Part shown: one piece after another, positions 3,996 to 54,491 of the stretch
How positions within the stretch are numbered: the first letter of the stretch is position 1
How the letters are laid out: each line of letters opens with the position of its first letter
Assembly (NCBI RefSeq): GCF_024505045.1
Contig: NZ_JANIBM010000008.1
Coordinates: 62,001 to 126,000 of the forward strand
Source: Methylomonas aurea
GTDB taxonomy: Bacteria; Pseudomonadota; Gammaproteobacteria; Methylococcales; Methylomonadaceae
Length of the DNA: 64,000 bases
Direction of reading: 5' to 3'
The notes under the pieces: model-generated
The model's database searches: none
The model's input: only the letters and a program-made list of their open reading frames with translations
Told to the model about the DNA's origin: nothing
Translations under genes and position numbers: made by a program

Positions 3996-6900
3996 TTATG
4001 CGGCTTCGTTTTCCAACAATTCCTTGACGATGCTCAGGCTTTCCAGGCTGGCCAAATTTTTATCGATGGACGGAACGCCGGCCAGAGCTTGGCGGTTGAA
4101 TCGGTCCTGTTCGATGATCCAGGCGGTGGAGCCAATCGAGTAAATGCTCTGGACGTCGCGCAGTTTCAACGTGGTCTTATAGTCGTTCAAACGTTTTTCA
4201 GCCATTAGCGCCGCTAATTGTTGGTCGTCGTATTGACTGTAGGCCTCGCGAATGTTTTTTACCAACGCGTCTTGCAATTTGCGCGGACGCTCCATTAACA
4301 GCTTGTCGGCGTATTTATCGATCAAGCCCTGCGTCAGGGGCATATTGGCTTTGATCAACTGGTCGCGAGCGATTTGCTGGGCCCTGTCTATCACGGCGTA
4401 GCTATTGATCAGTTTCAGAGTCAAGTCGCTGTCGGTTTCCCCGTAGCCGGGTATCGCGCCGTTGAACAAAGCGTTACCGGTTTTGTGCGCTTGTTTGATC
4501 TGTTCGATCTGGTTCTGCGCGAATGCCACCGACAGTTCCTCGATCATCGCTTTGCGGTCGAGAGATTTGCTCAAGTACTCCGCGGTTTGGGTACGGTTCA
4601 ACCATAGTGGCAAGGCGAATTTGAAGTGCTCCCGATGTTGTGGCCAATTGGCGAGGATCGCTTTTGCTTTTGCCGAGCCGGTGTACTCTACATGCTGTTC
4701 CAGCATGTAAAGGATGAACTGTTCGTGGCTGGCTGCTACTTCACTAGCGTCGGTCAATCGATGGATGCTGACCGAGGTGTCGTCGTACAAATCCTCCAGC
4801 CGGTTTTCCGGGTCGTATTGGTAAGCATTGCCGCCGGACATGCCGGTACAAAAACCTTTGCCGAAACCGCCCAAATTCAATACTGCGCCGTTGATCATGT
4901 ATTCGCAGGCAAAATCGCCGACGCCTTCCACGACGGCCATTGCACCGGAATTGCGGACGGCGAAGCGGTCGCCGGCCTCGCCTTCGATGAAGGCTTTGCC
5001 GCCGGAGGCGCCGAACAAGGCAAAGTTGCCGATCAGCACGTTTTCACCGGGTTTATTCGAACCGCCGCCGGGCGATTTGATCACGATCACACCGCCGCAA
5101 GCGGTTTTGCCGACGCCGTCGTTGCATGTGCCGGTGTGTTCCATGCGCATGCCGTCGTTATTGAACGCCGCATAACTTTGGCCGGCGGAACCGTGGGTGC
5201 GGACGACGACGCTATCGTCCGCCAAATAGCGGCGACCATGCTGGTTGGTGTGTACGATTTGGCTGGCGGCGATTTGCTCCGCGCTCATCTCGTAATGCAG
5301 CATACGCTCGATATCGATTGCGGTTTGGCCGCCGACAGTCTTGTTACGGTTGTTGAGCTTGAATTCGGCACCTTCGACCACGACTTGCTTTTGACCGTGT
5401 TCGAACAGGGCTGCTTTTACTTTGGCGAAGATCAGATCGTCGATGGCGAAATCCTTTTCCAGGTATATCGGCTTTTCGACTTTGATTTCCTGCACTTCCG
5501 CCAACAGTTTTTGCAGGTGCAACTGCCCGATCATGCTCGGATGGTTGATCAAATGCAGCAGTTCGGTCTTGCCGCGGATATCCTTAAGGCTGCTGTAGCC
5601 CAAGTCGGCCAGAATTTCCCGAACTTCGTGAGCCAGGTTCATGAAAAACTGCGCCAATACACGCGGATCGCCTTTGAATTCCTCGTGCGCAGTGGTCAAC
5701 CCGGCCGGGCAGCGGATGTTGCAGTTTTTCGCCATCACACAGCGCAGCATCATCAGAGCGGTGGTGCCGAATTCGAACGAGTCGCCGCCGAGGATAGCCG
5801 ATTTGACCACGTCGGTGCCGTTCTGGTGAGCGGCGCTGCAACGCAAAACGACTTTGTCGCGTAAACCGTTCACCGCCAAGGCTTGGTGGACTTCTGCGAT
5901 GCCGATTTCCGGCGAGCGGCCGGTGTTTTTCAGGCTGGTGACCGCGGCGGCACCGGTGCCGCCGGTGTTACCGGCGACGTTGATAACATCAGCTCCGGCC
6001 TTGGCGACGCCAACCGCGATCGTACCGATGCCTTCCGAGGATACCAACTTGACCACTACCCGAACCCGGGCGGCCTTGGCGTCGTGAATCAATTGACCCA
6101 AATCTTCGATTGAATAGGTATCGTGGTGCGGTGGAGGACTGACCAGTTCCACTTTCGGCGTGCCACCACGTAAAGCTGCGATTTCCACCGAGACTTTCGG
6201 CGCTGGCAACTGACCGCCTTCGCCCGGTTTCGCACCCTGGCCGATTTTGATTTCGATTTCTTCCAGATTCGGGTCGGCCAAATAGCCGGCCCAGACGCCG
6301 AAGCGGCCGGAGGCGAATTGCTTGATTTTGCTGGAGCGTATAGTACCGAAACGGCTGGAGTGCTCGCCGCCTTCGCCGGAGTTGCTCATGCCGCCGGCGA
6401 TGTTGGTACCCTGCGCTACCGCTTCGTGGGCCTCGGCCAATAATGCGCCGTGACTCATCGCGCCTGAGGCAAAAGTTGGGGTGATTTCGTGCGCCGGTTG
6501 TATCTTGGCCAAGTCCAGACGCTCGCGGGCGGTGCGGAGGTTACTCAGGTAAAAATGCAGTACGCTGTCAGTGTCGTTAATCCGGACGTTCAGACTGTCG
6601 GTTTCGATGGCGACCGAGAAATCTTGACCGGCGAAACGCGATTTTAGATGTTCCGCCAGTTGTTCCAGTCGGACTTTGCTCGGATTGTCGGTCAATTCGA
6701 CTTTGAACACGGCACCGTTGGTGCGGGACACTTTCAAACCGCGCACCACAAAGTTGTTATTGCCGTGCAGGTTTTGGCTGCCAAGCAGGCGATCGAACTC
6801 GGCTTGCGTCTCTGCGCCGGAAATATCGACCGGGAACTCCATCACGTCGCGCAACGCGGCGGGGCGGTTGGCCCGCTCTTGAGCCAGATTGCGGGTGAAG

Positions 6901-9479
6901 CTGCGATAGGCCGGAGTAATGCCGAAGGCGTCGATTTGCGCCGGCGTACGTTTTTCGTAGCCGAAATCGCGGTAGGCATTATCGCTGGCTACGTTAGCCT
7001 GTTGCTGCGGGATATACAGAATCGGCTCGTCGGTCATCGCGATATATTCGCGAACTGCGGTGTTGCCGAAGGTGTGGCCGGCGCCATCCTGGCGTTCCTT
7101 GAACAGGCCCAGGAACGGAATGTCGTTTTCGCTCTGTACCGACAAGGCCTTATGGTGCCATTCGCAGGAACTGGCGGCGATATCGGCATAGCGCGCGCCG
7201 CCGACCGACGAATTAATGTTCGGGAAATAGGGCTTTAGTTTCGGTTCTTCAGTGTCTAGATAGTTCGATTCGAAAAACTCGCCGCCGATGTAGCTTTCCA
7301 CGGTGCAAAGGCCGAATTTGCCCATGGTTTTCATTAGCGATTTTTCGACGCCTTTCTGGAAGTTGTACAAGGCTTTTTTGCGTCCGGCTTCGTCGGCATA
7401 TTCGGTCGTGACTCGGTTATGCACGCTCAGCGGGCAGATTGCCGAGGCGCCGAAACCCAAAATGGTCGCAACATCGTGCGGGCTGGCGGCCTGGCCGGTT
7501 TCCATAACGATTGAGGAATTGAAGCGCAGGCCCTGTTTGACCAAATGTTGGTTGGCGGCGGCGATCATCAGCAAAGCAGGGATTGCCGCTCTGGTTCGGC
7601 TGATGTTGGCGTCGCTCAGAATGATGATGCCGGTATGGTTGCGCGCGGCTTGTTCGACTTGTTCGCAAACGGCCAGGAAGGCGTGTTCCAGCGCTTGTTC
7701 GTTGCGCGCGGAATCATCGAAGTCCGGCGTATACAGCATGTCCAGAGTCACGGTTTTGACCAGGATCTGGCGGCGGATTTGTTCCAGTTGGGTGCGTTGC
7801 AGAATCGGCGATTCGATCATCAACTGTTTGCTGGTTGGCGGCGCGAAGGTCGGTTTGGCGCCGAGTGCGACGCGCAAGGTCATGCCGTCGCTTTCTCGCA
7901 GCGAATCCAGCGGCGGATTGGTAACCTGGGCGAAACGTTGGCTGAAATAACGGGACATGCCGCCCTCGGCCGAACTCAGTGCGTTCGGGGTCAGACCGTA
8001 GCCCATTGCCGAGACTTTTTCCAGGCCGGTCTGCAGGATCGGATCCAGCAGGAATTTGAAGCTTTCCTGGTTCAGCGAATAAGCGGTATGGCGTTGTTCT
8101 ATGTTCAACGGGTGGTCGTTGCCGATCTCCGACAACTCCACTTTCGGCAGTTGATCCATGTGCACGCAGCGTTGCGCCAACATTGCCTTGTAATCTTTTT
8201 CGCGGGCCAGACGCGCCATAACTTGGTGGCTGTCGTAAGATTCGCCGGTGTTATGATCGAAGTAAAGCATACCCCCGGCCTCGATGCGGCCGCGGCGCAA
8301 TACTTGCTCGGGGGGGAAGTCGATCTGGCCGGCTTCCGACATTACGGCCAAGTATTCTGCAGTTTCAACCGAACGTAGCGGCCGTAAACCCAAGCGGTCC
8401 AGTCTGGCGCCGACGCGGATACCGTCGTTGAATATCAGCGCTGCAGGGCCGTCGTTTTTTTCTTCGTACAAACTGAAATATTCCAGCATCGCGCGAACGT
8501 CGTCGGACAGGGTCGGATCGTTTTCCCAGGCTGGCGGCATCATCGCCAGGATTGCGGTGACGATGTCGAGTTCGTCTTCATTGATGCGGCGGGTCAGGGT
8601 TTGGTCGAGACGGCCGGAGTCGGACTGGCCGCACGGAAACACGATGTGCTTGTTATTCTGGCGGGCGATTGCGTTTTCGCTGAGGCGGTTTTTCTTGTCC
8701 GTGTTCAACTCGCCGTTGTGTGCCATGTAGCGAAATGGCTGCGCCATCATCGTCGCCGGCGCTGTGTTGGTCGAGAACCGGGTATGGAAAAACAGCGTGC
8801 TGATTTCGTGATCGGCGTCGTACAGGTCGACAAAGTAAGGGATGACCTCGAACGAATTCAAGCGGCCTTTGTAAACTTGGGTGCGCGAACTCATCGATAG
8901 CGGGTAGAAGCCCTGCAATTCCGGTCGATTGAAACCGTCGACTTCAATGGCCAGCAAGGCTTGTTGAATATGTTTTTCGAACATGTCGTGGCTGGCGTCT
9001 TGCAAGGATGCCGGGCGGCCGAAAATCACCTGTTTGATCGGTAATTGCGCTTTGACCGCGGCAGCGTTCAACACGGAAGTGTCGACCGGTACTTCACGCC
9101 ATTTCAAAACGGGTAGGTCGAATTCTTTCAGGTGCTCTTCGACCAGTTTTTGCGCTTCCGAATCGTAATGGGCGTGGTCTTCCGGAAAGAAGAAATTGGC
9201 TACGCCGAATTGGCCCAGCGCCAGGCTCGGATTCCCCGTGACTTTGCGGAAAAACTTCAGGGACAGGTCGATGTTGACGCCGGCACCGTCGCCGATTCCT
9301 TCGGCGCTCATGCCGCCGCGGTGCGGAATGGTACAGAGCGCTTCGTGCGATTTCAGCAGCAGTTCGTGAGTCTGTTTGCTGTCCTTGCGGGTAATGAAGC
9401 CGACGCCGCAACTATCCTGGGATAGGTCGGCATCGTAAAGCATGTGTACTGAGTTGATTTTCTGGGCGTTTTTAATCAT
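3996..9479 (-). CDS. Extended glutamate synthase large-subunit-like protein (1827 aa)
   Basis: Domains run in GltB order. A type-2 glutamine amidotransferase domain starts after a propeptide at Cys24 in DSCGVGF and is followed by a central domain. Next come the FMN/2-oxoglutarate synthase barrel (SGAMSHGAL, GEGGQLPAPKVS), a 3Fe-4S cysteine cluster at residues 1247, 1253 and 1257, and the GXGXG beta-helix (about 1350-1560). The reaction expected is glutamine plus 2-oxoglutarate to two glutamates. Two features are unusual. The protein is about 300 residues longer than a typical 1500-residue GltB, with roughly 200 extra residues at the C-terminus. The cluster spacing is C-x5-C-x3-C rather than the usual C-x5-C-x4-C. 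No gltD is adjacent; a diflavin reductase gene follows. It is best called a divergent GltB relative. Confidence 0.85.
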   Translation of the reverse strand: MIKNAQKINSVHMLYDADLSQDSCGVGFITRKDSKQTHELLLKSHEALCTIPHRGGMSAEGIGDGAGVNIDLSLKFFRKVTGNPSLALGQFGVANFFFPEDHAHYDSEAQKLVEEHLKEFDLPVLKWREVPVDTSVLNAAAVKAQLPIKQVIFGRPASLQDASHDMFEKHIQQALLAIEVDGFNRPELQGFYPLSMSSRTQVYKGRLNSFEVIPYFVDLYDADHEISTLFFHTRFSTNTAPATMMAQPFRYMAHNGELNTDKKNRLSENAIARQNNKHIVFPCGQSDSGRLDQTLTRRINEDELDIVTAILAMMPPAWENDPTLSDDVRAMLEYFSLYEEKNDGPAALIFNDGIRVGARLDRLGLRPLRSVETAEYLAVMSEAGQIDFPPEQVLRRGRIEAGGMLYFDHNTGESYDSHQVMARLAREKDYKAMLAQRCVHMDQLPKVELSEIGNDHPLNIEQRHTAYSLNQESFKFLLDPILQTGLEKVSAMGYGLTPNALSSAEGGMSRYFSQRFAQVTNPPLDSLRESDGMTLRVALGAKPTFAPPTSKQLMIESPILQRTQLEQIRRQILVKTVTLDMLYTPDFDDSARNEQALEHAFLAVCEQVEQAARNHTGIIILSDANISRTRAAIPALLMIAAANQHLVKQGLRFNSSIVMETGQAASPHDVATILGFGASAICPLSVHNRVTTEYADEAGRKKALYNFQKGVEKSLMKTMGKFGLCTVESYIGGEFFESNYLDTEEPKLKPYFPNINSSVGGARYADIAASSCEWHHKALSVQSENDIPFLGLFKERQDGAGHTFGNTAVREYIAMTDEPILYIPQQQANVASDNAYRDFGYEKRTPAQIDAFGITPAYRSFTRNLAQERANRPAALRDVMEFPVDISGAETQAEFDRLLGSQNLHGNNNFVVRGLKVSRTNGAVFKVELTDNPSKVRLEQLAEHLKSRFAGQDFSVAIETDSLNVRINDTDSVLHFYLSNLRTARERLDLAKIQPAHEITPTFASGAMSHGALLAEAHEAVAQGTNIAGGMSNSGEGGEHSSRFGTIRSSKIKQFASGRFGVWAGYLADPNLEEIEIKIGQGAKPGEGGQLPAPKVSVEIAALRGGTPKVELVSPPPHHDTYSIEDLGQLIHDAKAARVRVVVKLVSSEGIGTIAVGVAKAGADVINVAGNTGGTGAAAVTSLKNTGRSPEIGIAEVHQALAVNGLRDKVVLRCSAAHQNGTDVVKSAILGGDSFEFGTTALMMLRCVMAKNCNIRCPAGLTTAHEEFKGDPRVLAQFFMNLAHEVREILADLGYSSLKDIRGKTELLHLINHPSMIGQLHLQKLLAEVQEIKVEKPIYLEKDFAIDDLIFAKVKAALFEHGQKQVVVEGAEFKLNNRNKTVGGQTAIDIERMLHYEMSAEQIAASQIVHTNQHGRRYLADDSVVVRTHGSAGQSYAAFNNDGMRMEHTGTCNDGVGKTACGGVIVIKSPGGGSNKPGENVLIGNFALFGASGGKAFIEGEAGDRFAVRNSGAMAVVEGVGDFACEYMINGAVLNLGGFGKGFCTGMSGGNAYQYDPENRLEDLYDDTSVSIHRLTDASEVAASHEQFILYMLEQHVEYTGSAKAKAILANWPQHREHFKFALPLWLNRTQTAEYLSKSLDRKAMIEELSVAFAQNQIEQIKQAHKTGNALFNGAIPGYGETDSDLTLKLINSYAVIDRAQQIARDQLIKANMPLTQGLIDKYADKLLMERPRKLQDALVKNIREAYSQYDDQQLAALMAEKRLNDYKTTLKLRDVQSIYSIGSTAWIIEQDRFNRQALAGVPSIDKNLASLESLSIVKELLENEAA

Positions 9480-9729
9480 AGCTATCCAGATCCTGTCTAC
9501 TGAGTTGATGCGTTGCCGGTGTTTTCCTTGCCGAAAACGCTGTTTATGGTTTTTCTGCCTGCTGCGTGTTAGAGTCGTCCCGAAGAGCGGGGAGAAACGC
9601 GCGATAACTTCCGAATTTCAGTTGGCGAAACTTTCCAATCATATCACGCGGGGCGGGCTCTGTCATTTCGTGAATCTAATCTTGTCAAGTTTGCCGTTAG
9701 GCTTCTGTTTTAAAACTTTGTGACTAAAT

Positions 9730-10950
9730 ATGAAAGAACAAATTGATGTGGTGATCGTGGGTGGCGGCATGGTCGGTGCAGCGTTGGCATGCAGTTTGGG
9801 CGGCAGCCGTCTAAAGGTGGCCGTGGTAGAGGCCCAGACGCCTGAACCGTTTTCCGCCGATCAGCCACATGACTTAAGGGTTTCCGCGCTCAGTATCGCG
9901 TCCAAAAATATTCTGGAAACTGTCGGCGCCTGGGAGGGCGTGACATCTCGGCGTTTTTGTCCGTTTCGCCGGATGCGCGTGTGGGAAAGTTCGGGCGATA
10001 CGACGTTCGACAGTACCGATATCAGTTATCCCGAATTGGGCTATATCGTCGAGAATCGGATTACGCAACTGGCATTGCTCGATCGATTGCGAGAGTTTGC
10101 CAACGTGGAGCTGTTGATGCCGCAGGTCATCAAGAAGATCGATTATGATGGCAGCCAGTCTTGTGTGACCCTGGAGAGTGGCCGGGAATTGCAAGCGAAA
10201 CTGTTGGTTGCGGCCGACGGCGGTCACTCCAGAGTAAGGCAGGCGGTCGGTTTGGGTGTGACCAGTTGGGATTATAACCAGCATGCATTGGTGATTTACA
10301 TCGAGACGACCTATCCGCAGCAGGATATTACCTGGCAGCGCTTCGTTTCGTCCGGGCCGCAAGCGTTTCTGCCATTGACCGGAAACTATGCATCGATCGT
10401 CTGGTATCAATCGCCTGATGAAGTGCGACGCTTGCAAGCCCTGCCATTCGAGCAATTGCGGGCGGAGTTGGTCGCAGCCTTTCCTGATTGTCTGGGTGAA
10501 GTGAAACAGGTGCTGGGAGTGGCGAGTTTTCCGTTACGGCGCCAGCACGCTCAAGCCTACGTCAAACAAGGCGTTGCCTTGGTCGGAGATGCGGCGCACA
10601 TGATTAATCCTCTGGCCGGGCAAGGGGTTAATATCGGCTTGCTGGATGCCGCCGCTTTGGCAGAGGTCGTGGTCGATGCACACGGCCGGGGCAAAAACTT
10701 TGCCGATGTCTCGGTGCTGCGGCGTTATGAGGCGATGCGGCGTAACGAAAATCTGAAGATGATGACCGTCATGGACGTGTTTTACCGCTCGTTCAGCAAC
10801 GACATTCTGCCGGTCAAGTTGCTGCGCAATCTCGGTCTCGGCCTGGCGCAGAGGATCACTCCGGCGCGTAATAAAGTCATGAAAGCGGCAATGGGGCTGG
10901 AAGGTCGCTTGCCGAAATTGGCGCGCGGCCAGCGGCTGTCGGCCGGGTAG
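9730..10950 (+). CDS. UbiH/UbiF/UbiI-family FAD-dependent hydroxylase (ubiquinone biosynthesis)
   Basis: The 406-residue flavoprotein monooxygenase has an N-terminal Rossmann FAD site (VVIVGGGMVGAALACSL), a DLRVSALS stretch typical of the ubiquinone hydroxylases, and the second FAD motif ALVGDAAHMINPLAGQGVNIGL near residue 290. Members add hydroxyl groups to the aromatic ring during ubiquinone synthesis at the inner membrane. Which ring position this one acts on cannot be told by eye. It is divergent from the gltB-like gene and converges with glnD, with only 6 bases between their ends. Confidence 0.88.
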   Translation: MKEQIDVVIVGGGMVGAALACSLGGSRLKVAVVEAQTPEPFSADQPHDLRVSALSIASKNILETVGAWEGVTSRRFCPFRRMRVWESSGDTTFDSTDISYPELGYIVENRITQLALLDRLREFANVELLMPQVIKKIDYDGSQSCVTLESGRELQAKLLVAADGGHSRVRQAVGLGVTSWDYNQHALVIYIETTYPQQDITWQRFVSSGPQAFLPLTGNYASIVWYQSPDEVRRLQALPFEQLRAELVAAFPDCLGEVKQVLGVASFPLRRQHAQAYVKQGVALVGDAAHMINPLAGQGVNIGLLDAAALAEVVVDAHGRGKNFADVSVLRRYEAMRRNENLKMMTVMDVFYRSFSNDILPVKLLRNLGLGLAQRITPARNKVMKAAMGLEGRLPKLARGQRLSAG

Positions 10951-10956
10951 CCGAGT

Positions 10957-13602
10957 TCAAGTTTTCAGGTCCAAATATCTGAGCATCGTGGTGCGTAATT
11001 GTTGTTTTTTATCCTCGTCGTCGATCGGACGCGATTGCCGATCGGTGATGTAGAACATATCTTCGGCGCGACTGCCTATCGTCGTGATCTTGGCGTCGTG
11101 CAACTGGATGTCGAGCTCGGTAAACGCGCGGCCGATGGTCGATAGCAGACCGGCGCGGTCGGTTGTCACTAGTTCCACGATCGTGTGTTTATGCGAAGGA
11201 TCGTCCAGAAAGGTAATGCTGGTTTCGATCGGAAAATGGCGGGCCTGGCGGGACTGTTTGTGGATGTTCTTCGAGGCTTTGACTTTTTTGGCGATTAGGC
11301 CTTGGCGTAGTGCATTGCAGATATGGACTTCCCGGTACAGGTCGTTGATCGCTTCTCCGGATTGTTCGAGCACCTGAAAACTGTTCAAAACATACTGGTC
11401 TGCGGTCGTGATGATCCTTGCGTCCAGGATGGTCAGGCCAAGCTGATCCAGCGTTGCCGTGCATATCGAAAACAATAAGTCTTCATTGCGGGTATAGACG
11501 AATATTTCAGCGCTACCGCGTTGAGTTTGCGGGCGTAGCAGAACGAGAGGCATTTCGCTTTCCTGGCAGGCGGCAATGGCAATGGTATGCCAGGCAATTT
11601 CGTCGGCCGAGTAGCGTAGAAAGTAATCGTCGCTCAGGTGTTGCCAAGACTGTTTGATCGTGGTCTTGGACATGCCCAGTTTCAACAGCTCTTCTCGCGC
11701 CTCCTTCCTGTTTTCTTGTACTCGTTCGGAGCGCGCTACGGGATTGTGCAGGCCGCGGTGCAGCGCTTGGTGGGTCGAGATGTAGAGCTCTTTCAGCAGT
11801 GCGTCTTTCCAGGCGTTCCATAAGCTGGGATTGGTGGCGCGAATGTCGGCCACGGTCAACAGGTACAAATAATTCAGATATTCGATACTGCCGACTTGCA
11901 GCGCGAAGGTGTGAATCACCTCCGGATCGCTGATATCTTTGCGCTGAGCGGTCATCGACATCAGCAGGTGGTGGCGGACCAGCCAGGTAATGACCTTGGT
12001 GTCGTGGTTGGACAATTCGTGTTGCAGACAAAAGTTGCGGGCCAAGGTCTCGCCCAGCGTGGAATGGTCTCCACCGCGGCCTTTGGCTATGTCGTGGAAC
12101 AACGCCGCCAGATACAGGATATCGGGCTTGGCGATCAGCAAAAAAATGTTATTGCAAAACGGCAGCTCGTTATTGTGCTTGGCCAATGAAAAGCGCCGCA
12201 GATTGCGGATCACGAACAGCGTGTGCTCGTCCACGGTGTATATGTGGAACAGGTCGTACTGCATTCTCGCCACGATATTCGCAAAGTCCGGCAGATAGGC
12301 TGCCAGTACGCCGTAGCGGTTCATGCGTTTCAATTGGCTGGTAATCCCGCGCGGCTGGCGCAGGATGTCCATGAACAATCGATTAGCCTGTTTGTTGCGG
12401 CGGAAGTTTTCGTCGATCAGCGGCAGATTCTTTCGGATCAATCGAATCGTGCTGGCGCGAATGCCTTTCAGCGACGGCGACTGTTGCAGGATCAGGAAGA
12501 TTTCCAGCAATGCCAAGGGTTGTTTTTGAAATACGTCTTTGTTGCTGACTTCCAGGTAGCCGTCTATCGACGAGAAGTTGGCCGTTATCGGAATCGGGGT
12601 CAGGCTTTCCTTGTTGCTGATCAAGCGCTCGTTAAGCAATTGCAGCAACATTTCGTTCAGCCGTTCGATGTCGACCACTGTTTTGAAATAGAACTGCATG
12701 AATTGCTCTACGTCCGGCTGTTCGTTGCGGTCGACATAGCCGAATTGGCTGGCAAGTTCCCGCTGGTAGTCGAATACCAAGCGGTCTTCGCAGCGGTTGG
12801 TTAAATTGTGTAAGGCAAAACGCAGGCGCCATAAAATGTCGCGAGCAGTGATCAAATTGTCGTACTCGGATTTGGGCAGGAAACCGTATTTGATCAATTC
12901 CCGCAGTGACGATGCGTTGTAGTGGCGTTTGAATACCCAACTTATGACCTGCAAATCGCGCAGCCCGCCCGGGCCTTCTTTGATGTTCGGTTCCAGGTTG
13001 TAAGCCGTATCGTGGTATTTGGCGTAGCGCTTTTGCTGTTCCTGCATTTTTGCCGGGAAAAATTGGTCGGAAGGCCATAATGCATCCGAGCTGACTTTGC
13101 GTTTCAGTTTCTCGAAAAGCTCGGAGCTGCCGGCAATCAGGCGCATTTCCAGCAGGCTGGTGAACACGGTTTGGTCGTCTTGGGCGGCCGTCAGGCAGTC
13201 GTCGACGTCGCGCGTGCTCAGGCCCGGTTTCAGGCCGATATCCCATAGAAAGTTGCAAAAGCCCGATAGCGCGTGTTGATAGTCGGCCGGATCGGCGTCG
13301 GCTAGTAACACCAGAATGTCGATATCGGAATAGGGAAACAGCTCGCTGCGGCCGTAGCCGCCGGTCGCGATCAGGCAGTGCAGATCAGCTGCCGGGCCGA
13401 GGAAATGCAGCCAGCACGCAGTGAGGATGTTGTCGATGAAGCGGGCTTTCTCGGTGAGCAGGCCGGCAGTAGCCTGGTCCGGGTTGAAGCGCAGTTTTAA
13501 ATGGGAGTTTTCCGCGGCGATTGCGTTCTTAAACGCCGCAATCGGGTTGTCCTGGCTGAAACAACTTAAAAAGTCGCTTTCCGTGAACGGAAACGGGCTC
13601 AC
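10957..13602 (-). CDS. glnD: Bifunctional PII uridylyltransferase / uridylyl-removing enzyme
   Basis: The 881-residue protein has the four GlnD parts: an N-terminal nucleotidyltransferase with GGYGRSELFPYSDIDILVLL (about 100-120), a helical linker, an HD domain with LAALFHDIAKGRGGDHS (about 500), and two C-terminal ACT domains that sense glutamine. It modifies PII proteins with UMP under nitrogen limitation and removes it when glutamine is high, so it controls glutamine synthetase and Ntr signalling. It starts with GTG at 13602; this overlaps the TGA of map (GTGA), implying translational coupling. map-glnD next to rpsB is a conserved gammaproteobacterial arrangement. Confidence 0.96.
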   Translation of the reverse strand: MSPFPFTESDFLSCFSQDNPIAAFKNAIAAENSHLKLRFNPDQATAGLLTEKARFIDNILTACWLHFLGPAADLHCLIATGGYGRSELFPYSDIDILVLLADADPADYQHALSGFCNFLWDIGLKPGLSTRDVDDCLTAAQDDQTVFTSLLEMRLIAGSSELFEKLKRKVSSDALWPSDQFFPAKMQEQQKRYAKYHDTAYNLEPNIKEGPGGLRDLQVISWVFKRHYNASSLRELIKYGFLPKSEYDNLITARDILWRLRFALHNLTNRCEDRLVFDYQRELASQFGYVDRNEQPDVEQFMQFYFKTVVDIERLNEMLLQLLNERLISNKESLTPIPITANFSSIDGYLEVSNKDVFQKQPLALLEIFLILQQSPSLKGIRASTIRLIRKNLPLIDENFRRNKQANRLFMDILRQPRGITSQLKRMNRYGVLAAYLPDFANIVARMQYDLFHIYTVDEHTLFVIRNLRRFSLAKHNNELPFCNNIFLLIAKPDILYLAALFHDIAKGRGGDHSTLGETLARNFCLQHELSNHDTKVITWLVRHHLLMSMTAQRKDISDPEVIHTFALQVGSIEYLNYLYLLTVADIRATNPSLWNAWKDALLKELYISTHQALHRGLHNPVARSERVQENRKEAREELLKLGMSKTTIKQSWQHLSDDYFLRYSADEIAWHTIAIAACQESEMPLVLLRPQTQRGSAEIFVYTRNEDLLFSICTATLDQLGLTILDARIITTADQYVLNSFQVLEQSGEAINDLYREVHICNALRQGLIAKKVKASKNIHKQSRQARHFPIETSITFLDDPSHKHTIVELVTTDRAGLLSTIGRAFTELDIQLHDAKITTIGSRAEDMFYITDRQSRPIDDEDKKQQLRTTMLRYLDLKT

Positions 13603-47935: not shown

Positions 47936-50900
47936 ATGGATAATACCCCGGGTATTTCGAATCGCCCAACCCACTCAATGTTAGAACCCAATTCATCGAG
48001 CAAGCTTTACGTCGTCGGCATAGGCGCATCGGCAGGTGGATTGGAGGCTATTAGCCAACTCATCAGCCAATTACGCCCCGAGTTACCTTGCGCCTACGTG
48101 GTGCTTCAGCATCTGTCGCCCAGTTACCGCAGCATGATGGTGGAGATTTTGAGCCGGGAGACCGTACTCAAGGTCAAGGAGGCGCAAAACGGCGATCTAC
48201 CGGAAGCCGGCTTCATCTACGTCGTTCCCGCAAATTACAACGCTTATATCAAAGAGCGCCATTTGATTTTGGTGACTGCCCAGCCGGAAGTCGTTCCCAA
48301 GCCGTCGATCAATCAATTTCTGATTTCCCTGGCGGCAGAAGAAGGCGATTCCGCGATCGGGATCGTGCTGTCGGGCACCGGCTCCGACGGCGTCGCCGGC
48401 TTGCGCGCGATCCAAGCGGCTGGCGGATTTACCTTTGCCCAGACGCCGGAGTCGGCCAAATACGACGGTATGCCCAGATCCGCCATCGAAGCGGGGGTCG
48501 CGGACCATATTCTACCCCCCGAAGACATTGGGGCGCGATTGCAGCAATTGTTGGAAACGCCGGCACCCAATCCGGAAGTCATCCCGCCGCCGGATCAGCT
48601 CGACCAATTGCTGGGTAAGTTGCGCGACAAACTGCATCTGGATTTTTCCGGGTACAAAATCGGCACTCTGTTGCGGCGGGTACGCCGCCGCCAAATCGCG
48701 ACCTCCAAGTTGGAATTGAAAGATTACTTAGACTGGGTGGATCGCGATTCCGGCGAATTGGATGCCTTGGCCCGCGACATCTTGATTTCGGTGACCGCTT
48801 TTTTTCGGGATCGCGAGGCATTTGCCGCGCTGGGCAGTTCCATACAAGAGCTTTGCAAGCGCAAGCCGTCGGGCGGCGAGATTCGGGTTTGGGTTGCCGG
48901 TTGCGCCAGCGGCGAAGAAGCCTACTCGGTCGCCATGCTCATTGCCGAAGCATTGGGCGAACGGCTGCAGCACCATAGAGTGCAAGTATTTGCGACCGAC
49001 ATCGACGACGATGCATTGAATGTCGCGCGCCGTGGGATTTACCCTGCCGCCTCGATGGCGGAAGTGCCGGCGGAGTTATTGGGCCGCTATTTCAGTCCTG
49101 CCAACCAAGCTTACGAGGCCGGCAAGTTGCTGCGCGACATGATCGTGTTTGCTCGGCACAATCTGGTCAGCGATCCGCCGTTTTTGCGCCTGGATTTGGT
49201 GTCTTGCCGCAACGTTCTGATTTATTTCGACTCGCCGTTGCAGGCCAAGGTATTGCAAACCTTTCATTTCGGGTTGCAGAAAGAAGGCTGTTTATTCCTG
49301 GGACGTTCGGAAAGTGTGGCCCAGGCCGAACAATTGTTCACGCCATTGGATCGCCGCGAACGCCTGTTCAAAAAAACCGGCGACTCGGCGATATTGCCGG
49401 GCCCGGTCAATACGGCCAGTTTTAAGTCGCCGCTGCATAAGCGCGATCATAAGCAGGAAGCGTTGCTATCCGGTTTGGTCAGGCACTATGGGGTGACGGC
49501 CGCCCTGATCGACAGTAAAGGCAATATCCAGCATACCGTCGGAAAGGTCGACCATTACCTGCAATTTCCGGTAGGGAGCACCCGGCTGTCGATTGCCGAT
49601 GTCAGCGTGCCGCAATTGCGCGGCGAACTTTTGACGTTGTTGCACCAGTGCGAACAAACCGGCAAGCCTCAGCGCGGGCGTAAACGTAAGTTGAGTAACG
49701 AGCGCTTTCGGATTTATGTCGAGCCGATTGCCGATAGCAATAGCCAATATCGGTTGGTGCTGTTTGTGCCGGATAGGGCAGACGCCGCCAACGACGAGCC
49801 CGCCGGCCTGACTCCTAACCGGGCGTTGGAAGACGAGTTGGTCGCTACCCGCGAACATTTGCAGGCATTGGTGGAAGAGCTCGCCACCGCCAACGAGGAA
49901 ATGCAGGCGCTCAATGAAGAAACTCAGGCCTCGAACGAGGAGTTGCAAGCGACCAACGAGGAATTGGAGGCCGCTAACGAAGAATTACAGGCCACCAACG
50001 AAGAGCTGATCAGCTTAAACGAGGAACTCAGCGTCAAGACCCAGGAATTGGCGCGGCTGACGGAAGAATACGCGCACTTGTACGACGCGTTGCAATTTCC
50101 GATTTTGGTGTTCGATCGCGCATGCCAATTGATCCGCTTCAATGCGCCGGCGGCCCGCCATTTCGACCTGCGCCCCACTGCGCTGAGGCAACATGTCAGT
50201 CGCCTGCGCCTGCCGGAATCGATGAAGCATCTGGACAATTTACTGGGCAGCACCTTGGCGCATGCCGACCGTATCGAGCGTGCGGTCAAGTTTAACGAGC
50301 GCTGCCTGCAACTGGCAATCACTCCGGGTCTGGACGCGACCGGCAACGTGGTTACCCTGGTCGCGACCCTGATCGATATTACAGAAATCAGTCAAGCGCA
50401 GACTCAATTACAGAAATCTCAGTCGCGTTTGAGCGCATTGATGGAAAACACTACCGTCATTTTCGCGATGAAGGACACCAAGGGCGATTATTTGTACGCC
50501 AATCGGCGATTTCTCGAATATTTCGACATTCCGGCCGAAGGCTATTTGGGCAAAAACGATTTCAATCTTTTGCCCAAAGACTTGGCCGCCAAAATCTGGA
50601 GCGCCGATCTGGAGGCCTTGCGCATGCAAAAAGCTGTGGTGTGCGAACATGTCATCAATAACGGCAGCGAAACCCACCACTTGCGCACAGTACATCAATC
50701 CTTGCAGGACGAGGACGGCATTCCGACCGCGTTTATCACCGAAGCCGAGGATGTTACCGCCGCTAAACATGCCGAACAGCAATTGCGCATTACGGCACGG
50801 GTTTTCGAACAGGCCGGCGAAGCCATCGCGGTCACCAACCCCAAAGGCGTTATCGAAACGGTCAATGCGGCGTTTACTCATATCACCGGATATCTGATGG

Positions 50901-52450
50901 AGGAAAGCATTGGCCACACGGTCGGTTTTCTGCTGAAATCCGGCCGCCATAGTCTCGAGTTTTACCAATCGATGTGGCAAGCCTTGAATCAGAAAGGCTA
51001 TTGGCAAGGCGAAATCTGGAACAAACGCAAGAACGGGGAAATCTTTCCGGAGTGGCTGACCATCAATCGGATCGACGATAAAGATGGCAACCCCGAGCAT
51101 TTCGTTGCGGTATTTTCCGACATCACTAGTATCAAAGATTCGCAGCGTAAAGCCGAATATCTGGCGACGCACGATCCTTTGACCGGTTTGCCCAATCGTG
51201 CCTTGTTTCAAGACCGGTTAAGACATTCGCTGGCCAAGGCCAGACGAAGCAATAACCAGGTGGCGCTGTTGTTCATCGACTTGGATAATTTCAAAAACAT
51301 CAACGATAGCCTGGGTCACGATTATGGCGACGAATTGCTGAAACTGGCTGCCGCGCGGTTGACGGATGTCGTGCGCGACATCGATACGGTTGCGCGTTTG
51401 GGCGGCGACGAATTCACCGCCATTCTGTCCGATTGCAACGTCAAAACGGCGCAAGCCATCGCGCAACGCTTGCTGGACGATTTATGCGCTTCGTTCGAGA
51501 TCGATGGGCGCAGCCTGTTCATTTCTGCCAGCATTGGCATCGCCTTTTTTCCCGAAGACAGCAACGATAGCCAGGGGCTGATCAAAGCCGCGGACACGGC
51601 CATGTACCGCGCCAAAGAGCAAGGCCGCAATCGTATCGGATTGTTCAAACCCGATATGCAAATCAAGCTGTTGAAGCAACAGGCGCTGGAAAGCGGTCTG
51701 CGTGAGGCCATCCGGCAGAAACGGCTCAGATTGGTTTACCAACCCAAATACCGAATCGAGGCCGGCAAACAGTTGATCGGCGCGGAAGCCTTGCTACGCT
51801 GGCACGACCCCGAACTGGGCGACATATCGCCGGCAGAATTTATTCCGATTGCGGAAAGCAGCGGGTTCATGTTGGATTTGGGCGAACATGTGTTGCAGCT
51901 GTTGCTGGCGCAAATCGCCTATTGGCTGGGCCAGGGCCTGCATGTTCCGACCATTGCGCTCAATGTATCGGCCAAGAGTATTCGGGAAATCCACTTCGCC
52001 AATAAAATGTTGAGCTCCTTGCAGCGTTACGGCGTCGCCGCAAGGCAAATTCAAGTCGAAATCACCGAAAGCGCATTGTTGGAAAATAGCGTTACGGTCC
52101 GAAATAATATACTGGCGATTCACGAAGCCGGCGTCGGCATCGCGATCGATGATTTCGGTACCGGTTACTCGTCTTTAAGTTATTTGAAGCATCTGCCTTT
52201 GACCGAATTGAAAATCGACAAGAGTTTCGTCGAAAGTTTGGGCGAGCGAGCCGAAGACGAAGCCATTGCCCGGGCGATTCTGGGCCTTGCCGGAGCGCTA
52301 AACTTGAAAACCGTCGCCGAAGGCGTTGAAAACGAGCAGCAACTGCGCTGGCTGCAGCAAAACGGCTGCGACATCTACCAAGGCTATTTATTTTCCAAAC
52401 CATTGGAAACCGACAATTTCGAGGATTTATTGGCAGGACTGCGGTTATGA
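47936..52450 (+). CDS. CheB-CheR-PAS-GGDEF-EAL fusion protein (1504 aa)
   Basis: Order: a CheB methylesterase domain (about 20-200, with Ser in GIGASAGGLEAI, His in VLQHLSP, Asp in SGTGSDGVAG); a CheR methyltransferase domain (about 215-480, AGCASGEEAYSVAML, LVSCRNVLIYFD); a coiled coil (about 635-710, repeated TNEELEAANEEL); three PAS-type regions (about 715-1070); GGDEF (about 1085-1240); and EAL (about 1250-1500). GGDEF keeps its active site, and RDID five residues before it is a c-di-GMP inhibitory I-site. EAL keeps EALLRW, the ITESALLEN segment and DDFGTGYSS. So synthesis and breakdown of c-di-GMP both look possible. Its TGA overlaps the phytochrome ATG. Confidence 0.92.
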   Translation: MDNTPGISNRPTHSMLEPNSSSKLYVVGIGASAGGLEAISQLISQLRPELPCAYVVLQHLSPSYRSMMVEILSRETVLKVKEAQNGDLPEAGFIYVVPANYNAYIKERHLILVTAQPEVVPKPSINQFLISLAAEEGDSAIGIVLSGTGSDGVAGLRAIQAAGGFTFAQTPESAKYDGMPRSAIEAGVADHILPPEDIGARLQQLLETPAPNPEVIPPPDQLDQLLGKLRDKLHLDFSGYKIGTLLRRVRRRQIATSKLELKDYLDWVDRDSGELDALARDILISVTAFFRDREAFAALGSSIQELCKRKPSGGEIRVWVAGCASGEEAYSVAMLIAEALGERLQHHRVQVFATDIDDDALNVARRGIYPAASMAEVPAELLGRYFSPANQAYEAGKLLRDMIVFARHNLVSDPPFLRLDLVSCRNVLIYFDSPLQAKVLQTFHFGLQKEGCLFLGRSESVAQAEQLFTPLDRRERLFKKTGDSAILPGPVNTASFKSPLHKRDHKQEALLSGLVRHYGVTAALIDSKGNIQHTVGKVDHYLQFPVGSTRLSIADVSVPQLRGELLTLLHQCEQTGKPQRGRKRKLSNERFRIYVEPIADSNSQYRLVLFVPDRADAANDEPAGLTPNRALEDELVATREHLQALVEELATANEEMQALNEETQASNEELQATNEELEAANEELQATNEELISLNEELSVKTQELARLTEEYAHLYDALQFPILVFDRACQLIRFNAPAARHFDLRPTALRQHVSRLRLPESMKHLDNLLGSTLAHADRIERAVKFNERCLQLAITPGLDATGNVVTLVATLIDITEISQAQTQLQKSQSRLSALMENTTVIFAMKDTKGDYLYANRRFLEYFDIPAEGYLGKNDFNLLPKDLAAKIWSADLEALRMQKAVVCEHVINNGSETHHLRTVHQSLQDEDGIPTAFITEAEDVTAAKHAEQQLRITARVFEQAGEAIAVTNPKGVIETVNAAFTHITGYLMEESIGHTVGFLLKSGRHSLEFYQSMWQALNQKGYWQGEIWNKRKNGEIFPEWLTINRIDDKDGNPEHFVAVFSDITSIKDSQRKAEYLATHDPLTGLPNRALFQDRLRHSLAKARRSNNQVALLFIDLDNFKNINDSLGHDYGDELLKLAAARLTDVVRDIDTVARLGGDEFTAILSDCNVKTAQAIAQRLLDDLCASFEIDGRSLFISASIGIAFFPEDSNDSQGLIKAADTAMYRAKEQGRNRIGLFKPDMQIKLLKQQALESGLREAIRQKRLRLVYQPKYRIEAGKQLIGAEALLRWHDPELGDISPAEFIPIAESSGFMLDLGEHVLQLLLAQIAYWLGQGLHVPTIALNVSAKSIREIHFANKMLSSLQRYGVAARQIQVEITESALLENSVTVRNNILAIHEAGVGIAIDDFGTGYSSLSYLKHLPLTELKIDKSFVESLGERAEDEAIARAILGLAGALNLKTVAEGVENEQQLRWLQQNGCDIYQGYLFSKPLETDNFEDLLAGLRL

Positions 52451-53898
52451 AACCACGCTTTCTCGATCAGTGCGAACAGGAAGCCTTGCATCTGTCGGGC
52501 GCGATTCAAGCTCACGGTGCGCTGATTATCGTCAACGGGCAAGGCATTTGCGACCGCGTTTCCGAGAATATTGAACGGTTCGCCGCGCTGCCGGCCGAGC
52601 GATGGCTGGGTCGCACGCTGCCTGCGGAGCCGGCCGATTGGCTGAAACTGTTCTCCAATCAAGGTTCGCGGCGCTTGATCTTATACAAAACGGCTTTAGC
52701 GGATCGCCCGCTCGATGTGATTTTAAACCGGCTCGATAGCGGCGCTATCAGTTTTGAATTGTTGCCTCATGTTCCCTGGCGCCAAACCTCGCACGGTATT
52801 TTCTTGCCGCAAACGCCAGACAGCGAGGCCGAAATCGAGCGAATGCAGCAGGCGTTGACCGAAAAGGTAGCCGCCATCACCGGCTTTCAACGCGTCATGC
52901 TGTATTTGTTCAGGGAAGACGGCGACGGCGAGGTCATCGCCGAAACGGTTGCTGCCGACGGCCATTACGGTACTTATCTGGGCTTGCGTTTCCCAGCCAG
53001 CGACATTCCGCAAATCGCGCGCAAGTTGTATTTGCGAACGCCTTGGCGTTTTATCGCCGATGCCTTGGCCGATCCCGTTGCGTTGCTGGGTAACGATGAC
53101 CAAGCCGACTTGAGTTTGGTCGATTTGCGTAGCGTCTCGCCGGTACACCGGACGTATTTAAGCAACATGGGGGTCAGGTCGTCCTTGTCTTTCCCCGTCG
53201 TCGTCAATGGCGCTTTGACGGCGCTGGTCGCCTGCCACCAGCAGCAGTCGAGCTTGCTTTCCCCGCAGACGTTGGAGTTGGCTGCCGAACATGTTCGCGC
53301 TTATAGCGTCGCAATAACCAGTTTTCATGCTCGCCGCCGCATCCGCATGATAGATGGGTTGACCCAACGTTTTGAACAGGTTAAGCATCTGCTCCAGCGC
53401 CATGGTGCTATCGAGTCGGCCTGGCCGGAGCTGGCACCGTGGCTGGTTAGTGAATTCAAAGCCGACGGCATTTGCTTAGCCTTGGGCGACAGGTTTATCG
53501 TTTGCGAACACGGTTTCGAAGCGGAAGCCCTCGGGTACATCGACGATTGGTTTTGCCACGAAGCGGGCGAACTGGTCTGGCAATGCGATAGCTTGAGGCG
53601 CGAGTTCCCGGATTTTCCGTTATCCGAGGTTGCCGGAATCATGGCCATGCGTCTGACCACTCAAGCGGGCATCGTGCTTAGAATCTATTTGACACGCATG
53701 GAGCACATCCACGAAGTGGCATGGGGCGGCAATCCGGACAAACCGGTCGAATACCACGACGGCCGGCTAGGCATTGCGCCGCGCCGCTCCTTCGAAAAAT
53801 GGCTGGAAAAACGCATGGGATACAGCCGGCCTTGGGAAAACGAATCACGTTTATTGCTGCACAAATTGCGTGATCTATTGCAAAACCTCTATGTTTAG
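52447..53898 (+). CDS. Bacteriophytochrome photosensory core without output domain (483 aa)
   Basis: PAS-GAF-PHY layout. The bilin-binding Cys is Cys9 in DQCEQEALHLSGAIQAHGAL, the bacteriophytochrome position before the PAS domain. The GAF domain has FPASDIPQIARKLY and SVSPVHRTYLSNMG (His by the chromophore), and the PHY tongue has VAWGGNPDKP and PRRSFEKWLE. The protein ends straight after PHY, with no histidine kinase, GGDEF or other output. It therefore must act on a partner. Its ATG overlaps the stop of the CheB/CheR/GGDEF/EAL gene (ATGA), and a heme oxygenase gene follows by 5 bases. Confidence 0.9.
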   Translation: MKPRFLDQCEQEALHLSGAIQAHGALIIVNGQGICDRVSENIERFAALPAERWLGRTLPAEPADWLKLFSNQGSRRLILYKTALADRPLDVILNRLDSGAISFELLPHVPWRQTSHGIFLPQTPDSEAEIERMQQALTEKVAAITGFQRVMLYLFREDGDGEVIAETVAADGHYGTYLGLRFPASDIPQIARKLYLRTPWRFIADALADPVALLGNDDQADLSLVDLRSVSPVHRTYLSNMGVRSSLSFPVVVNGALTALVACHQQQSSLLSPQTLELAAEHVRAYSVAITSFHARRRIRMIDGLTQRFEQVKHLLQRHGAIESAWPELAPWLVSEFKADGICLALGDRFIVCEHGFEAEALGYIDDWFCHEAGELVWQCDSLRREFPDFPLSEVAGIMAMRLTTQAGIVLRIYLTRMEHIHEVAWGGNPDKPVEYHDGRLGIAPRRSFEKWLEKRMGYSRPWENESRLLLHKLRDLLQNLYV

Positions 53899-53903
53899 TA
53901 CCG

Positions 53904-54491
53904 ATGCAATCTGATTCAGCCGACCGGGGCGTTCCGAGCAATTCTTGCGCCGCTAAGGTCTTACGCCAACTGACCCAAGATCGGCATCGCGCCGTCGAAG
54001 CGCTGCCGATATTCCGGCGCTTGCTGCTGGCTGAAGTTACCCTAGCGGATTATGCGGCAGTGCTGACGACGCATTACCGGTTTTATACGGTGGTCGAGCC
54101 GGTTTTGATAGCGAATAATGCGTTGGGCTTGTCTTATCAAGCACGACTGCCTTTGCTAACGCGGGACTTGACCGCTCTGGGCTGCCCGCTTCCCGCAAGC
54201 ACTAATCATTCGCTGACGATACCGACGAAAGCCGCGGCGTGCGGCTGCCGTTACGTGATCGAAGGCTCGGCGTTGGGCGGTAATATCATCACTGCGCACC
54301 TACGGGCGCGTTTGGGAGATGCGATCGATTCCGCTCTGGCTTTTTATACGTTGGACGGCCGGCCATTGTTGAGTTGGCCTAAAGTGCAAGCGGCTTTATC
54401 CGAACAACTCGACAGCCAGCAGGCGACAAATGAAGCCGCTGCTTACGCCAATCTGGTTTTTAGCCTATTGGAGCGGCTTGCCAATGCTTGA
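53904..54491 (+). CDS. bphO: Biliverdin-forming heme oxygenase (BphO type)
   Basis: This 195-residue heme oxygenase-like protein has the proximal His at residue 28 (LTQDRHRAVEALP), the YRFYTVVEP helix, and EGSALGGNIITAHL, which matches the GSxLGG distal helix of bacterial heme oxygenases. It opens heme to biliverdin, the chromophore of bacteriophytochromes, and is commonly encoded next to one. It begins 5 bases after the phytochrome stop, so it is co-transcribed. The start of the protein may be a little further in. Confidence 0.85.
   Translation: MQSDSADRGVPSNSCAAKVLRQLTQDRHRAVEALPIFRRLLLAEVTLADYAAVLTTHYRFYTVVEPVLIANNALGLSYQARLPLLTRDLTALGCPLPASTNHSLTIPTKAAACGCRYVIEGSALGGNIITAHLRARLGDAIDSALAFYTLDGRPLLSWPKVQAALSEQLDSQQATNEAAAYANLVFSLLERLANA

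Follow-up and report, generated by a model that had tools for sequence, protein, structure and literature searches.

We propose that the output-less bacteriophytochrome of Methylomonas aurea belongs to a conserved, mobile two-protein light switch, in which it would act by direct, reversible contact on the protein encoded upstream of it – a CheB-CheR-PAS-GGDEF-EAL fusion. We put the probability of this reading, which is built on sequence comparison, at roughly three in four. An output-less sensor lies beside such a c-di-GMP/methylation protein in several families, so light signals are probably passed between proteins here rather than along a single chain.

The window (the whole 64,000-nucleotide stretch that we analyzed) carries the fusion, phytochrome, and heme oxygenase genes, in that order, as three plus-strand open reading frames at positions 47936-54491 (Table 1). 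The initial annotation had described three genes with an ATGA overlap and a 5-base spacing, and both the reading frames and the junction letters bear this out: between phytochrome and heme oxygenase the sequence runs TAG, a 5-base gap (53899-53903), ATG. Promoter and terminator scans returned about as many hits as shuffled sequence (6 versus 4.7 and 12 versus 11.8, respectively). AMO/PMO-family genes occur at two places in the window's genome, in line with a methane oxidizer.

Table 1. Features of the three-gene locus (window positions; aa, amino acids or residue numbers)
Feature	Position	Strand	Basis
CheB-CheR-PAS-GGDEF-EAL fusion, 1504 aa, operon gene 1	47936..52450	+	ORF, Pfam, NCBIfam
CheB methylesterase domain, aa 27-202; GASAGG, LQHLS, SGTGSDG kept	48014..48541	+	Pfam 187 bits, motifs
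CheR methyltransferase domain (CheR_N/CheR), aa 221-472; AGCASGEEAYS, CRNVLIYF kept	48596..49351	+	Pfam 180 bits, motifs
Coiled-coil-like stretch, aa 628-714, Glu/Asn/Leu-rich	49817..50077	+	Own reading of sequence
Three PAS domains, aa 715-816, 837-944, 955-1063	50078..51124	+	Pfam PAS_10/PAS_4/PAS
GGDEF domain, aa 1077-1233, with I-site RDID	51164..51634	+	Pfam 179 bits, motifs
EAL domain, aa 1255-1489	51698..52402	+	Pfam 232 bits, motifs
ATGA, holding the fusion stop codon and the phytochrome start codon	52447..52450	+	Sequence letters
Output-less bacteriophytochrome PAS-GAF-PHY, 483 aa	52447..53898	+	ORF, Pfam, alignment, profile match
Cys9, expected biliverdin-binding cysteine; kept in 15/15 output-less rows aligned	52471..52473	+	Alignment
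PHY tongue motif PRRSF, aa 445-449	53779..53793	+	Alignment
Heme oxygenase (BphO-type), 195 aa; genome's sole heme oxygenase match	53904..54491	+	Pfam, genome search

In the window phytochrome, Pfam identifies PAS_2 (residues 9-100, a weak match of 25.9 bits against a cut-off of 21.4), GAF (130-283), and PHY (318-481). Since the PHY match extends to residue 481 of 483, nothing follows it: the protein has no kinase, PAS9, GGDEF, or other output domain after PHY, and the chains of its relatives likewise stop there. A profile of seven output-less rows matched solved PAS-GAF-PHY chains almost end to end (best E 1.6e-105). The motifs Cys9, SDIP, WGG, and PRRSF are all present, so Pfam and the motif alignment agree with the earlier description of a phytochrome with Cys9, GAF, and PHY tongue motifs whose chain ends after PHY. 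The N-terminal Cys is the expected biliverdin-binding residue, and the DIP motif, the conserved GAF His, and the PRxSF tongue are further hallmarks of the bacteriophytochrome photosensory module.

Residue conservation was assessed on 15 aligned output-less rows, a set that excludes G941 and G345. Cys9, Asp186, Ile187, Pro188, Tyr195, Arg201, Arg228, Ser229, His234, and His264 are identical in all 15, and sensor and tongue residues are kept at identities to the window protein as low as 31%. The phytochrome is thereby predicted to bind biliverdin at Cys9. All but one of the 15 rows also keep the tongue residues, and these 14 are precisely those that lie beside CheB-CheR; the exception is G971. 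In the G971 phytochrome (L158:7181-8692), which has no neighboring fusion, the tongue has lost the PRxSF arginine and one of the WGG glycines.

Pfam and motif alignment likewise upheld the claim of intact CheB, CheR, GGDEF with I-site, and EAL motifs in the window fusion, in which the CheR_N match itself falls slightly below its Pfam cut-off and the RDID I-site sits five residues ahead of GGDEF. Our own reading of the sequence adds a further PAS-like stretch at about residues 490-612. Domain order was assigned by Pfam for the window, G011, the metagenome-assembled genome (MAG) contig described below, G110, G092, and G1003, and by alignment and motifs for the others. The CheB, CheR, GGDEF, and I-site motifs are retained in all 12 fusions checked (10 plus two further), judged by the CheB Ser-His-Asp and CheR SAM-site motifs; CheR CRN reads FRN in G823 and G921. 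GGDEF and RxxD occur in 10 of 10 aligned fusions, in which EAL motifs are clearly degraded only in G921, with small changes in others. The two further fusions contain GGDEF, RxxD, DDFG, and AEGVE (the EAL pattern, which matched a chance place, was left unused for these two). Because DibA, a phosphodiesterase, is the family that NCBIfam matches best to the C-terminal part (613 bits, under the cut-off of 980), net c-di-GMP hydrolysis by the fusion seems as likely as synthesis.

We searched for related phytochromes, with a single sequence or a profile, in 201 genomes of the order, 369 of the class, and 398 of the phylum, as well as in further samples of 48 and 244 genomes (the orders of G573 and G941, respectively) and one contig collection; some genomes fall in more than one sample. 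Together with the window phytochrome, 17 of those found stop at the end of PHY; they come from at least two classes. The order sample yielded those of the window, G011, G110, G192, G092, and G008; the contig collection a Gammaproteobacteria MAG contig (JADGBD010000038.1); the class sample G279 and G345; the phylum sample G573 – outside the window's class by its label – G823, G921, and G941; and the 244-genome sample G971, G1003, G1134, and G1137. This count leaves out G182:C3, G149:C85, L130, L131, and some even shorter matches. By eye, we rejected four further candidates: G562 (447 residues, without the N-terminal Cys region and with a separate GGDEF frame downstream), G165:C258 (a frame break), and G731 and G760 (fragments).

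The genomic context of these phytochromes is distinctive. A uniform tblastn scan placed both CheB and CheR within 5.5 kb of 16 of the 17 output-less phytochromes. The same held for 0 of 40 longer ones; one of the 40 has CheR alone nearby. These controls, a fetched subset of a larger match set, were classed as longer by their open frames of at least 680 residues and have flanks of about 4.7 kb or more (except one with only 2 kb on one side). Nine of the 17 loci have the exact order of fusion, phytochrome, and heme oxygenase with the first two intact (window, G011, the MAG, G110, G092, G008, G279, G1003, and G1134). G823 and G921 have fusion and phytochrome without heme oxygenase, which is absent from beside three of the 17 phytochromes, the third being that of G192. 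The fusion is broken in G192 and G573, and the phytochrome lies in two frames in G941. Apart from the fusion, only heme oxygenase recurs as a neighbor across families (ORF lists, by eye).

Where the spacing was measured, at 12 loci, the fusion is the first gene and the phytochrome start falls at -8 to +47 bases relative to the fusion end, by starts chosen in ORF finding; G1003 and G1134 fit by ORF ends. The rule that the fusion lies upstream was tested on four later finds: two obey it exactly, one is unfused (G1137), and one fails (G971). G1137 (L161:7538-14530) is a natural unfused version of the fusion: an output-less phytochrome comes first, accompanied by a divergent heme oxygenase on the opposite strand, and a CheB-CheR-PAS protein (835 residues) and a separate GGDEF-EAL gene (660 residues) are placed after it. 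G971 has phytochrome and heme oxygenase only, and its best CheB-CheR-PAS match, an open frame of 856 residues, lies elsewhere in the genome.

Several loci are disrupted. In the single-contig genome G941 (L088:7324-8813), the phytochrome occupies two overlapping frames with the break inside the GAF domain. In G345 (L062:6456-13353), CheB-CheR is followed by a phytochrome that is N-truncated and in a different frame, and then by heme oxygenase, with a separate PAS-GGDEF-EAL frame upstream – a layout that reflects either true rearrangement or faulty assembly. In G573 (L083, L084, L085), parts of the cassette recur on different contigs in several near-identical copies, with breaks in the fusion frame and, by eye, transposase- or recombinase-like frames nearby.

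Phylogenetic analyses point to a shared history of the two proteins. Against 44 longer phytochromes, the output-less forms fall on one side of a branch (support 100/99 with 11 rows and 100/95 with 15); in the 15-row tree G1137 forms a long basal branch and the remaining 14 group at 98/87. Phytochrome-linked fusions also form one group, at 100/99 both with 10 rows and in an enlarged tree with 12, outside which the G1137 CheB-CheR-PAS protein falls. The outgroups of the 10-row tree were one CheB-CheR-PAS protein, judged on its N-terminal half, and six GGDEF-EAL-like fusions that have no phytochrome. Midpoint roots serve drawing only, and the trees leave out the G941 and G345 phytochromes, the broken or rearranged G192, G573, and G345 fusions, and G971, which has no fusion. 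With 17 output-less phytochromes, 16 of them by CheB-CheR, and a single clade for each protein, the refuting case named in the initial annotation – a lone truncation – is ruled out, and the comparative evidence supports its proposal that light signals pass from the phytochrome to the fusion.

Both trees share one main split, which separates the window, G011, the MAG, G110, G1003, and G1134 from G092, G008, G279, G823, and G921; branch order within the window's set differs in places between the trees, some of it weakly supported. The window pair is closer to those of G011, from another family, and the MAG than to those of G092 and G008. Since the two trees have this split in common although the window and G092/G008 share a family, the pair appears to move as a unit, and its distribution requires horizontal transfer or an old duplication with losses. 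The tree group nearest to the phytochrome-linked fusions consists of CheB-CheR-PAS-GGDEF-EAL fusions without a phytochrome (L119, L120, L121). Three such proteins (G169:C8, G061, and G070:C37) align over their full length with the same motifs, are 42-44% identical to the window fusion, and have no phytochrome within the fetched region. This enzyme type can thus work on other inputs, perhaps through its own PAS domains.

In the mechanism that we propose, heme oxygenase would make biliverdin, which would become attached to Cys9 of the phytochrome. Red/far-red light would then flip the photosensory module and refold the PHY tongue, and the altered PHY/tongue surface would contact the fusion directly and reversibly, shifting its net c-di-GMP synthesis or breakdown and possibly methyl transfer too. 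Light-driven refolding of the PHY tongue is known in the phytochrome family. We propose signaling to a separate protein because the phytochrome chain has no output domain, and place the contact at the PHY/tongue because of the specific pairing, the spacing, and the retained tongue; the contact, the direction of its effect, and which activity dominates are inferred from sequence comparison. Several observations count against this reading: the close relatives of the fusion that stand without a phytochrome, the three loci of 17 with no heme oxygenase, G971, the one of 17 without CheB-CheR, and G1137, in which the phytochrome precedes the other genes.

We looked for a contact site in both proteins. 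Within the fusion, the PAS domain after the coiled coil has the highest ratio of within-group to between-group identity (1.6). It was rejected as a docking region, as the effect was equal or stronger in two clades of CheB-CheR-PAS proteins used as controls (of 6 and 11 rows, irrespective of their gene neighborhoods). The phytochrome has only four clade-specific columns (Leu14, Ser17, Gly73, and Asp226), versus seven in a control clade, and none of the four lies in the tongue or last helix, so no docking surface could be assigned. Across nine taxa, distances in the phytochrome correlate at 0.85-0.96 with those in GGDEF, CheB, EAL, CheR, and the last PAS domain, and at only 0.43-0.73 with those in the coiled coil and the remaining PAS domains; co-inheritance alone explains these correlations.

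CheB and CheR usually act on chemoreceptors. Two loci, those of G1003 and G1134, have a gene for a membrane chemoreceptor (4HB-HAMP-MCPsignal) next to heme oxygenase and a PAS-MCP gene bordering the set, which suggests methylation as one component of the output in these genomes. A tblastn search with the G1003 and G1134 proteins found chemoreceptor-like genes at 2 of the 17 output-less loci, both in one genus, and at 0 of the 40 controls; the flanks covered measured 1.6 to 10 kb, with a longer upstream flank for the window, and queries from these two genomes may miss distantly related receptors. The chemoreceptor genes lie at L159:1574-4965 and at L160:1096-2838 and 9536-11158, and the PAS-MCP proteins cover just positions 14-110 or so of the 172-position signaling domain. 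As a CheR substrate in its own right the phytochrome was rejected: 11 of 11 lack an E/Q-E/Q-x-x-A/G-S/T site of the enterobacterial type and are thus not obvious substrates.

These observations bear on a rival account in which methylation is the main target, the phytochrome steering CheB/CheR to tune chemoreceptor methylation and phototactic adaptation while c-di-GMP is secondary. Retention of CheB and CheR motifs in 12 of 12 fusions, the chemoreceptor genes beside the set in G1003 and G1134, and the free-standing CheB-CheR-PAS protein by the G1137 phytochrome are all consistent with it. We nevertheless consider this account doubtful, given that the GGDEF and I-site motifs are kept equally well (12 of 12), that chemoreceptor-like genes were found at two loci of a single genus in a search that may miss distant ones, and that no phytochrome of 11 has the E/Q-pair site. 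We entertain only tentatively a light-driven hub with two outputs, in which a freely dissociating phytochrome would steer one polypeptide that both writes and erases chemoreceptor methyl marks and makes and breaks c-di-GMP. If true, light would reset chemotactic adaptation and the motile/sessile choice together, with no helical spine between sensor and enzyme.

Other explanations dispense with signaling between the two proteins, or with light. The genes may merely be co-transcribed, with the fusion sensing otherwise through its PAS domains and the phytochrome targeting another partner, such as a kinase or transcription factor. The sister group of phytochrome-free fusions fits this idea, as do matches to the N-terminal half of the fusion in 165 of the 201 order genomes (E of at most 0.001; many are weak, single-domain hits), but pairing with a single fusion clade at tight spacing, and the recurrence by eye of heme oxygenase alone as another neighbor across families, make it unlikely. 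We consider it rather improbable that the phytochrome acts on the fusion mainly as a sensor of biliverdin, redox state, or temperature: it keeps the tongue and DIP residues that Pr/Pfr cycling is expected to require, although PMC9587094 mentions roles of apo-forms and doubts light sensing by one PadC group. Least credible is a decayed relic or assembly artifact, a non-functional phytochrome that has lost its output. Broken copies do occur (the two-frame G941 phytochrome, the frame-broken G192 and G573 fusions, and the rearranged G345), but output-less forms are one clade across classes, 14 of 15 rows keep sensor and tongue residues at identities to the window down to 31%, and two single-contig genomes, G011 and G823, encode both fusion and phytochrome in intact form.

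The locus resembles PadC, PadC-EAL, and BphG1 of Rhodobacter sphaeroides in coupling a bacteriophytochrome sensor to GGDEF(-EAL). In these proteins, sensor and enzyme share one chain, and the coiled-coil linker is described as essential (PMC9587094); such phytochrome-activated diguanylate cyclases, where studied, relay the signal from PHY to GGDEF through a helical spine, and the length of the linker is considered decisive (PMC9587094). The window pair, in contrast, has no covalent link between sensor and enzyme and adds CheB-CheR; the same genome also encodes a one-chain form. Light-induced binding of a kinase-less phytochrome to a separate protein is described for RpBphP1 and RpPpsR2 of Rhodopseudomonas palustris (PMC6899989). 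RpBphP1, however, retains a C-terminal PAS9 and two-helix output part, neither of which the window phytochrome has, and its partner is a gene repressor rather than a c-di-GMP enzyme. The fusion can also be compared with the Wsp system.

Wsp ties a methylesterase and a methyltransferase to GGDEF output, using a separate CheA, CheW, receptor, and phosphorylated GGDEF regulator, whereas here one polypeptide holds CheB, CheR, GGDEF, and EAL and there is no kinase among the three genes. Among the open-access literature matches listed (titles and abstract starts), we recognized no pairing of an output-less bacteriophytochrome with a CheB-CheR-GGDEF-EAL protein; CheB, CheR, and bacteriophytochromes are mentioned in PMC12826048, PMC8846402, and PMC5812497. 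Sensor and enzyme genes kept together across classes without a covalent link would indicate a second signaling route. Such a family makes it testable, with two separate proteins, what PHY itself presents to an effector. It also supplies a likely input for one group of CheB-CheR-PAS fusions and offers optogenetics a natural split red/far-red pair.

The third gene matches the Pfam heme oxygenase family (38.6 bits, cut-off 23) and has both BphO hallmarks, the proximal His and a YV.EGS.LGG segment; the His is retained in the ten operon copies aligned (14 loci have heme oxygenase). The initial annotation had called this the phytochrome's own heme oxygenase. That description holds in the window and at the 14 of 17 output-less loci with the gene within 1.5 kb of the phytochrome, but such proximity is also common beside longer phytochromes (26 of 40, one being a degenerate frame in the window's genome). 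The second phytochrome in this genome (G000:C43) is a single PAS-GAF-PHY-PAS-GGDEF-EAL chain. Because the operon gene is the genome's only heme oxygenase match and the frame beside the second phytochrome is degenerate, the operon enzyme may serve both phytochromes. A Pfam scan of that frame gave no match up to E 10. At this locus (L039), the frame (5615-6118) precedes the one-chain phytochrome (6093-9377); its 168 residues align with heme oxygenases in MAFFT without the proximal His and the YV.EGS.LGG stretch, and it resembles a heme oxygenase with an internal deletion. In G060 and G024, of the same genus, a 218-residue heme oxygenase-like frame stands, by eye, at the same position beside the second phytochrome.
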